From positions 1-55,029 of the forward strand of contig CACFTI010000013.1 in assembly GCA_902569115.1 (NCBI GenBank): a DNA stretch of 55,029 bases, read 5' to 3'. The stretch's first letter is position 1, and the number at the start of each line of letters is the position of its first letter. Below the pieces are notes generated by a model. That model did no database searches and had not been told where the DNA came from. It saw nothing but the letters and a program-made list of their open reading frames with translations. The translations under genes were made by a program, and so were the position numbers. This DNA comes from an uncultured Verrucomicrobiota bacterium (lineage in GTDB: Bacteria; Verrucomicrobiota; Verrucomicrobiia; Opitutales; Seribacteraceae). Below, piece after piece: positions 46,041 through 55,029 of the stretch.

Positions 46041-46589
46041 ATGAAAATCATAGGATCAGTCATTGCTAGACTAGGAAGTAAAAGACTTACCTACAAAAAC
46101 CTTCTTCCTTATAATGGCATTCCTTTGGTCAGGCATGCTGTGCAACGATTGATCGAAACGAAACTTTTTGAGCAAGTTGTTCTCTCTACCGATAGTGAAT
46201 TGATAGCGAGAACTTGTATGGATTTGGATGTTGGTCTTTTGAAAAGGCCACCCGATCTTGCTTGTGACAATACTGCCTCCATCCCTGTATTTAGACATAT
46301 TGTCGATAATTACCCTTGTGATATTCATTTGAATTATAACTGTAATTTCCCCATTTGCGAAGATAGTGTTTTTATGGAGGCAATTAAAGCGACACAAGTG
46401 CATGGAGAGTCTCTTTCTGATCCATATGCAGTTTGGGCACAATCTAAAGAAACTCTTTATTCGTATGGTGATCCTATGAGAATTACTGCTGTAAAGTTTA
46501 AGACAAACAAGGTTCATGCCTTGGATATCCACACAATGTCTGACTTGATTTCTGTCCATCGAGAGAATCAGAATAAATTAAATTGGTGA
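46041..46589 (+). CDS. Short CMP-sugar cytidylyltransferase-like protein (NeuA/PseF family)
   Basis: A 182-residue member of the acylneuraminate cytidylyltransferase family. The nucleotide-binding start is IGSVIARLGSKRLTYKNLLP (family A-R-x-G-S-K-R motif with variation) and VVLSTDSELIA follows. Typical PseF or NeuA enzymes have about 225-240 residues; here the middle part is shorter and lacks the QPTSP-type segment, with NYNCNFPICEDS at that place. The C-terminal ALDIHTMSDLISVHREN resembles the family end. It could activate a nonulosonic acid made with the PseC-like enzyme, or be a truncated variant. Divergent from that gene. Confidence 0.72.
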   Translation: MKIIGSVIARLGSKRLTYKNLLPYNGIPLVRHAVQRLIETKLFEQVVLSTDSELIARTCMDLDVGLLKRPPDLACDNTASIPVFRHIVDNYPCDIHLNYNCNFPICEDSVFMEAIKATQVHGESLSDPYAVWAQSKETLYSYGDPMRITAVKFKTNKVHALDIHTMSDLISVHRENQNKLNW

Positions 46590-53173: not shown

Positions 53174-54607
53174 CTAAATCAAGACATTCACCAAGTCCTG
53201 ATGAATCGACATCGCCTGACTAAGCAGGGCGGTATCCTGTGCACGGTTGATACGAGCCTTACTAAGGTTTAAAAGATCCTGAGTTAGTCCATCTCCGCCT
53301 ATTGAAGAAAGTACACTTTCGCTTACATTCACCATTTCCTGTGTGGCCTCAATCGCATTTTGTACTCGATTAAAATTATTCGCTAATCTCCCTAGTTGCT
53401 CCCCAACTCCTTCGATTTCATTGGATAAGCTAGCAATGGCTTTTCCAGCATTTTCAAAGGTATCGATGGAGATTTCAGGAAAGCCGCCAGCTTGATCATT
53501 CTCACGCAGAAGCCCAAGACCCAGCTTTTGTATCCTAACTTGAAGATCATCTTCCCTACCAACGAATTCATCCTCTAGTTCAGGTAACTCAAAAGATCCT
53601 TTGACCTGAAAGATTGTGCCAGGGCTGTAAACTTGAAGTCGCAGAATGCTAGAGTCTGAATTTACAGTATAAGTAGTCACCTGTCCCAGTTGGGTATATT
53701 TTGCACCATCTCTAGAAGACCAGCCAGATGTGTTATAATAATCGGCATCACTTGGAGTTTTTCCGTTTTCATCTGTAGTTGTGCCAAGTAATTGCTGCAG
53801 ATATGTCTGTTTATTATCGAACTGATTATTGTCAGTTAAATTCCCCGGATATCCTGGTGCATCTAAAATGCTATCCTTGCTTTGACTGTCCCCAGGACTC
53901 AATGGGACAAATTGGAAAGTCGTTTGTTGTTCTGGGCCAAATTCGACAATAAACCTATCGTAATCCCAATTGCGAGCGTTCGATCTTGTTTTCCAAAGAC
54001 CTGTGTCAAAAATCTTCTCGTTACCTTGCCACAAGGTGAATTGCTCTGGTGAGCTTCCGCCATTCACATCAATTGTCATCTTTCCTTTGTTGTATAATAC
54101 ATCAGCTTCCTCAAAACGTGTAATTGCTGCATTGTTACTAAGAACTTTGAGCTGACCTTGCCCAAAACTTACCTCATATTTGGTAGACGCAGCTAGCGGG
54201 TCAAAAATAAGCTTCTTGTTAAATTTTGTTGCTGCAATAGACAATGCCCGTTCGCGCAAATCATTGAACTGGTCAGATAGTAAAGATCTATCCCGGTCGT
54301 TCATTAATGGATCCGCTGCTTGGTTTGCAAGTGTTCGCATCTGGTTATAAATTTTGTCTGCCTGCCGAATCGCGTCCGATTGTGCCTGCATTATGCTGAT
54401 GGCATTTTGAAAAGCATTTATAGATCCCTTTTTGAATCTTCTTTGATTCTCAATGTTGGCCGCGAAATTCACTCCACCTGCTCCTTCATTACTAAAAGCG
54501 GCCTGCCTGACCACATTTCCTGAGCTCCCTACTTTTTTGATCGAATGCTCTGCCTTCATGGATGAGTAGTCGATTTTTCTGACTAAGTTTTCAATTTCTC
54601 CAAACAT
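53174..54607 (-). CDS. Flagellin-like structural protein
   Basis: A 477-residue flagellin-family filament protein. The D1 N-helix is recognisable (GSINAFQNAISIMQAQSDAI to KIYNQMRTLANQAADPLMND, residues ~61-104), followed by DQFNDLRERALSIAATKFNKK. Residues ~140-370 are a variable surface region. The C-terminal helix has IEGVGEQLGRLANNFNRV and ends LSKARINRAQDTALLSQAMS plus IHQDLVNVLI, equivalent to the D0/D1 C-terminus. The N-terminal ~35 residues are not the usual Met-Ser-Ile-Asn D0 start. AAGGAAGGA lies upstream at 54617-54625. It is the intact member of a tandem pair; FlgL/hook-associated identity is less likely. Confidence 0.8.
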   Translation of the reverse strand: MFGEIENLVRKIDYSSMKAEHSIKKVGSSGNVVRQAAFSNEGAGGVNFAANIENQRRFKKGSINAFQNAISIMQAQSDAIRQADKIYNQMRTLANQAADPLMNDRDRSLLSDQFNDLRERALSIAATKFNKKLIFDPLAASTKYEVSFGQGQLKVLSNNAAITRFEEADVLYNKGKMTIDVNGGSSPEQFTLWQGNEKIFDTGLWKTRSNARNWDYDRFIVEFGPEQQTTFQFVPLSPGDSQSKDSILDAPGYPGNLTDNNQFDNKQTYLQQLLGTTTDENGKTPSDADYYNTSGWSSRDGAKYTQLGQVTTYTVNSDSSILRLQVYSPGTIFQVKGSFELPELEDEFVGREDDLQVRIQKLGLGLLRENDQAGGFPEISIDTFENAGKAIASLSNEIEGVGEQLGRLANNFNRVQNAIEATQEMVNVSESVLSSIGGDGLTQDLLNLSKARINRAQDTALLSQAMSIHQDLVNVLI

Positions 54608-54638: not shown

Positions 54639-54671
54639 TTAAATTAATATATTAACTAAATCCTGATGGAT
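54639..54671 (-). other. Untranslated continuation of the second flagellin's C-terminus
   Basis: Directly after the TAG at 54672-54674, the same frame reads ten codons, IHQDLVNILI, then TAA at 54639-54641. This matches the end IHQDLVNVLI of the intact flagellin, showing that the TAG interrupts an ancestral sequence. Confidence 0.85.
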
Positions 54672-55029
54672 CTACATTGCCTGCGTCATTAGTGTAGCAT
54701 TTTGCTGGCTCTCAATCCTTGTTTTGCTGAGTTCGTTCAAATCGGCGGTGAAATCCGTTTCACCGACCTGGGAGAGTGATTTTTTCCTGAGTCTCAATTG
54801 CTTTTGGGTGGTACCCATAGCTATCTCATCACGATTAAAATTACTTACTATCTGTACATTCTGCTCACCTAGGTTATCGATTTCCGCACGCAACACATCT
54901 ATGTCTTTGAGGGCATCCGAAGCAGTACCAATGGAGATGGTCGGAAATCCAGTTTCATCATGCCTAGGATAAACCAATGCCATTTGAGCCACAGTTAGCA
55001 TGCGATTGTAGATCTTTTCCGCCTGCCTC
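54672..55029 (-). pseudogene. Second flagellin copy, internally deleted with premature stop (partial)
   Basis: The frame is open to the window edge and encodes ~119 visible residues. It starts with RQAEKIYNRM, equivalent to RQADKIYNQM of the intact flagellin (residues 81-90), but about 10 residues later jumps to FPTISIGTASDAL, equivalent to residue ~376. About 270 residues of D1/D2 are absent. The C-terminal helix (IDNLGEQNVQIVSNFNRDE onward) is kept, then the frame stops at TAG where the paralogue has TCG. It could be a decaying pseudogene, or a minimal variant read through at the amber codon. Its 5' part is outside the window. Confidence 0.75.

Follow-up and report, generated by a model that had tools for sequence, protein, structure and literature searches.

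A probable young pseudogene of a tandem flagellin duplicate, with a late amber codon, in an uncultured Verrucomicrobiota bacterium

Introduction

In genes decoded by stop-codon readthrough, an in-frame stop precedes a coding tail that is conserved. An arrangement of this kind lies at the end of a contig from an uncultured Verrucomicrobiota bacterium, and the question raised by this locus is whether it represents a shortened flagellin with a leaky stop or a gene on its way to being lost. The window analysed here is the complete contig C13 of genome G000, 55,029 bp long, and its last 391 bases hold the entire finding. Among the matches listed in literature searches on flagellin readthrough, flagellin pseudogenes, tandem or multiple flagellins and C-terminal truncation, no title or abstract opening dealt with such a case.

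The flagellin fragment at the contig end

Two flagellin genes stand in tandem on the minus strand. The upstream one, gene B, is represented by its 3' part (54672-55028); because the window is a whole contig and the assembly is cut there, the 5' part of B is absent, removed by the contig end at 55029. Only 31 bases separate the TAA of B from the downstream gene A. The features, with the evidence for each in brackets, are the following:

54675-55028, minus strand: open 3' fragment of gene B, 118 codons, with the 5' end cut by the contig end
54980-54986, minus strand: deletion junction with the 7-nt repeat CARATGG, 238 codons missing relative to the B gene of genome G038 (nucleotide alignment to G038 B)
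54778-54795, minus strand: compensated frameshift block, now reading RLRKKS (nucleotide alignment to G038 B)
54672-54674, minus strand: in-frame amber TAG at a serine position of paralogue A (sequence and codon alignment)
54642-54671, minus strand: conserved ten-codon tail IHQDLVNILI after the amber (six-frame search, codon alignment and C-domain profile)
54639-54641, minus strand: TAA, the original end of gene B (sequence and codon alignment)
53174-54607, minus strand: intact tandem flagellin gene A, 477 aa, downstream of B (open reading frame; Flagellin_N above the cut-off)

The fragment translates from 55028 to 54675 as RQAEKIYNRM...LMTQAM and, apart from the TAG, its frame is open across 128 codons, while many stops are found in the remaining two frames. 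Paralogue A (54607-53174) ends in QAMSIHQDLVNVLI and is itself terminated by TAG. In a six-frame search the match between fragment and paralogue A runs through the stop with an E-value of 4.4e-20, and for this reason the fragment is considered real and beyond chance; a C-domain profile built from flagellins of the genus also matches it (E 3.8e-25). The tandem copy, its TAG and the ten paralogue-matching codons behind it, as originally described from the letters alone, are thus all present. No second copy of the fragment was found in a search of the G000 genome, nor was a separate 5' piece of B when the same genome was searched with the full-length orthologue G038 B.

The flagellin ancestry of the fragment is apparent from its matches to paralogue A and to full-length G038 B, with which it shares 62% identity. 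Gene A has a Pfam Flagellin_N match above the cut-off. The Flagellin_C match of the fragment (E 0.32) is below the cut-off, and in G038 B neither Flagellin_N nor Flagellin_C reaches it; a profile built from both genes, A and B, does match flagellins of solved structure. The fragment is therefore a homologue of the A and B flagellins of the genus, but differs from a bacterial flagellin (PF00669/PF00700) in that its second D1 helix, its D2/D3 region and its final 11 residues are missing. Flagellin families in this genus are very large (e.g., in G007:C35 and G008), with 245 C-domain matches in 27 genomes of 1.6-3.9 Mb and up to 27 matches per genome, and some of their members lie in open frames of more than 1000 aa and in long clusters. 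In addition, a cytidylyltransferase gene (CTP_transf_3) is found in the window at 46041-46589, a few kb from the flagellins, where a role in making a flagellin glycan sugar might be guessed at.

Orthologues and the age of the duplication

The fragment was searched against 27 genomes of the genus, with matches in 12 of them. The best match outside G000 is the B gene on contig C132 of G038 (NHDJ01000001.1, Verrucomicrobia bacterium TMED56, phylum Verrucomicrobiota). The 16 other matches all lie in frames of at least 441 aa, and consequently none of them has the deletion of G000 B. According to the open reading frame lists, G038 B is full length and stands in the same gene order as in the window. 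This order, with functions presumed from our reading of the sequence, is B, A, a MarR-like regulator, a sugar-dehydrogenase-like gene and a tautomerase-like gene, continued by what we take to be a lipoprotein-like gene, an Smr-like gene and a second lipoprotein-like gene. A tRNA-Ser comes next in the window, and in G038 the same place is taken by a tRNA match that is truncated where the contig stops; it is not called by ARAGORN and is Ser by eye. In G024, an uninterrupted B of 450 residues is located upstream of A. The original prediction had looked to sister genomes to tell whether the deletion and the TAG are shared: the deletion is absent from full-length G038 B, the TAG site of the window is not common to G038, and G024 B has no stop.

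Regarding the relationships of these genes, the full-length tree, from which the fragment was left out, joins G038 B and G024 B in one clade with 100/100 support, and the C-domain tree pairs G000 B with G038 B as sisters (96/98). Given these two groupings, B appears to be an old duplicate, older than the G000, G038 and G024 species, and not a fresh copy of A. In the C-domain tree, which carries a long-branch warning, the placement of G024 B beside the G000 B-G038 B pair is unsettled, the trio being grouped in 5% of the bootstrap trees.

A scan of named genomes returned three contigs, those of G038 and G024 and a chimeric-looking one; records of the window's own or near genomes may have been left out of it, and another genome of the window's species could thereby have been concealed. 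A separate scan of viral contigs returned no relative. The third contig (L061 2780-3009; WTIW01000090.1) is labelled Pelagibacteraceae. In it, AT-rich genes of cell-wall type (by eye) run into a B-type flagellin 5' end 76% identical to G038 B, and its sequence breaks off some ten bases before the point at which the window fragment starts, as judged by position on G038 B.

Lesions in the gene and loss of the flagellin core

In nucleotide alignment with G038 B, exactly 714 nt (238 codons) are missing from G000 B. The original estimate of about 270 lost residues is fair, the loss amounting to about 266 when measured by eye against paralogue A. In G038 B, the missing stretch is flanked by repeats at 0-based codons 96 and 334, 714 nt apart and alike in 6 of 7 bases, and the deletion would come from slippage or recombination between these short direct repeats. 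The junction is B-like on both sides, with no join to A. Further along, G000 B has lost one base and gained another about ten bases on, a compensated -1/+1 pair, so that the deletion and the frameshift pair both preserve the reading frame. G000 B has three disabling lesions, namely the 238-codon deletion, the compensated frameshift and the amber; in G024, B is uninterrupted.

The extent of the loss was placed on an AlphaFold model of A with a mean pLDDT of 56, from which only helix positions were taken; over residues 71-130, pLDDT was 75-88 per ten-residue block. The model has helices spanning residues 43-97 and 104-125 and, towards the C-terminus, 384-436 and 440-476. Mapped onto A, the deleted stretch covers roughly residues 97-362 and takes with it the entire second predicted D1 helix (104-125), and the TAG clips the last 11 residues from the C-terminal helix. 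In Salmonella, the last 40 flagellin residues are reported to be involved in FliS binding, and the filament channel is lined by residues close to the end (PMC8306008). It had been proposed that this copy might be a flagellin reduced to its filament core. This idea is not borne out, because the deletion extends into the D1 core: the complete D0-D1 core expected of a working flagellin is lacking, the second D1 helix being deleted and the C-terminal helix clipped, with the N-terminal D0 part lying beyond the contig end. A loss of D2/D3 alone, with the core kept, is represented by short tandem flagellins of the same genus (265-309-residue frames; e.g., L028 9596-10483 and L031 5496-6359). Like the fragment, these have no D2/D3; unlike it, they retain in the alignment the N-terminal D1 part, including the second D1 helix, and the C-terminal end.

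Selection on gene B

Between the C-domains of G000 B and G038 B, pN is 0.15 and pS 0.70, most pairwise dS values being saturated. This ratio suggests that B remained under constraint during most of the period after the G000-G038 split, in which case its decay would be recent. When G024 A serves as outgroup, G000 B has 13 amino-acid changes of its own and G038 B has 3, against 4 and 9 synonymous changes (Fisher p 0.0095, Tajima p 0.012; several tests, uncorrected); when the frameshift block is removed, the counts become 11 and 3 (Tajima p 0.033, uncorrected). The excess weakens with some outgroups, from 13/2 with G024 B to 11/4 with G000 A, 10/5 with G015 A and, at its weakest, 8/5 with G038 A. 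Furthermore, 6 of 13 C-domain columns that are invariant in seven other flagellins have changed in G000 B, including an A and a V that became D, whereas each of the other seven sequences changes 1-3 of 14-16 comparable columns. In the C-domain tree, the end branch of G000 B measures 0.37 against 0.078 for G038 B, and the order is reversed for gene A (0.15 in G000, 0.33 in G038). Taken together, the 13 versus 3 changes, the altered columns and the branch lengths point to relaxed selection on the G000 B branch.

Recent gene conversion was considered as a source of the conserved tail and rejected: in G000, the tails of A and B have 9 of 10 residues in common but differ at silent sites, with a pS of 1.03 over the 10 codons.

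Two late amber codons

G038 B has an in-frame TAG of its own, at a glutamine position (L056 2504-2506, on G038:C132) three codons upstream of the position of the window's TAG. It is followed by a conserved 13-codon tail and then by TAA, and the frame is otherwise open and full length. Since the two sites differ, the two events are regarded as independent. The C-domain profile gave 245 matches in the 27 genomes, and among the 150 listed, G000 B and G038 B are the only ones containing a stop. This search is not a pseudogene census, because frameshifted copies such as that of G013, described below, are missed by it. No CTA anticodon was read among the readable tRNA matches, 28 of 29 in G000 (70% complete) and 29 of 32 in G038 (84% complete), with a few first-look candidates left unscored; near-cognate readthrough, for its part, needs no suppressor tRNA. 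TAG is an ordinary stop in the window, ending 6 of the 38 mechanical ORFs of at least 200 aa as well as gene A.

G000 B resembles readthrough genes in having a stop that precedes a conserved coding tail. It differs from them in that the stop is not conserved between species (the sites lie three codons apart and G024 B has none), a decoding tRNA was not found among those readable and constraint is relaxed. The original prediction had offered a recent mutation or functional readthrough as explanations. The former agrees with the purifying selection seen in pN and pS and with the amino-acid excess on the G000 side; functional readthrough in G000 is unlikely, given the anticodons read, the ordinary use of TAG and the apparently relaxed constraint.

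Explanations weighed

The fragment is most probably a recently decaying pseudogene of the old tandem duplicate B, upstream of an intact A. Following a long period under purifying selection, B would have lost its function on the branch leading to G000, and the tail past the stop would still look coding because the stop is young. Counting for this explanation are the shared B-A gene order, the long G000 B branch, the amino-acid excess, the 714-nt deletion at repeats, the frameshift and a parallel in G013. In the latter genome (L030 6220-6902, on G013:C26), a related tandem array includes a middle flagellin in which an in-frame deletion is followed by a frameshift and stops; the deletion, sized from coordinates, is 672 nt against G004 B and 693 nt against G012 B, and a short similar stretch is found on both of its sides. 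Internal deletion is thus a recurrent route by which tandem flagellins are lost in the genus. Like other pseudogenes of duplicated genes under birth-and-death evolution, G000 B adjoins an intact paralogue and combines a deletion at short direct repeats, a frameshift, a premature stop and a rate increase; it differs in that its decay is young enough to have left a single stop and a tail that still reads as coding. Counting against decay, the open frame with its in-frame deletion and frameshift pair would be expected as well if a product were under selection, the pairwise pN/pS is low, the amino-acid excess shrinks with other outgroups, the C-domain tree has long branches and leaves G024 B unplaced, and the 5' part, promoter and start of the gene lie outside the contig. 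Decay is also not the only possible source of a late TAG, since G038 B has one with no other lesion seen.

Three other explanations compete with decay. An origin of the TAG, of the frameshift pair or of the deletion in a sequencing or assembly error is improbable. The feature does lie at a contig end, where tandem paralogues can break assemblies, and the public B-type 5' contig L061 stops close to the same point; however, errors would have to account for the deletion, the frameshift pair, the changes in conserved columns and the TAG alike, the silent sites show the divergence of a genuine gene, the junction shows no join to A and an independent assembly (G038) has a TAG in the same gene. The in-frame lesions and the frame open to the TAG would suit a functional minimal protein, flagellin-like or interacting with export, that dispenses with part of D1 and the D0 end. 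This is the least probable of the readings, as the short tandem flagellins retain the very helix missing here, acidic residues have replaced A and V at otherwise hydrophobic columns, and none of the 16 other search matches (27 genomes searched, 12 matching) has the deletion. It is likewise doubtful, to about the degree of an assembly error, that B is translated with leaky readthrough of its late amber into mostly clipped and some full-length flagellin, both TAGs being one feature. The presence in two orthologues of a TAG within three codons, each followed by a conserved tail to TAA, the restriction of stops to these two genes among the 150 listed C-domain matches of 245, and the otherwise open G038 frame with few changes speak in its favour; the differing sites, the stop-free G024 B, the deletion and relaxed constraint of G000 B, the tRNA matches of both genomes and the normal use of TAG as a stop speak against it. 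Readthrough retains some probability because the TAG of the G038 orthologue arose independently so near. In a broader and slightly less probable form, the upstream tandem flagellin of this lineage would keep a leaky amber within its last 15 codons, the exact codon drifting and the arrangement persisting; the product would then be mainly a flagellin clipped in the chaperone-binding, polymerising C-terminal D0 helix, together with some full-length subunit.

Biological meaning

As a recently decaying pseudogene, B is an ordinary case and suggests a repeated loss of tandem flagellins in the genus. Gene B seems dispensable beside A, given the late amber of G038 B and the decay of the G013 tandem flagellin by a similar route. 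Two sister genomes carry independent late ambers in the same gene; either B is dispensable in the G000/G038 species pair or late ambers in it are tolerated or used. If these ambers were leaky and under selection, translation would set how much of the flagellin is assembly-competent and how much is clipped.
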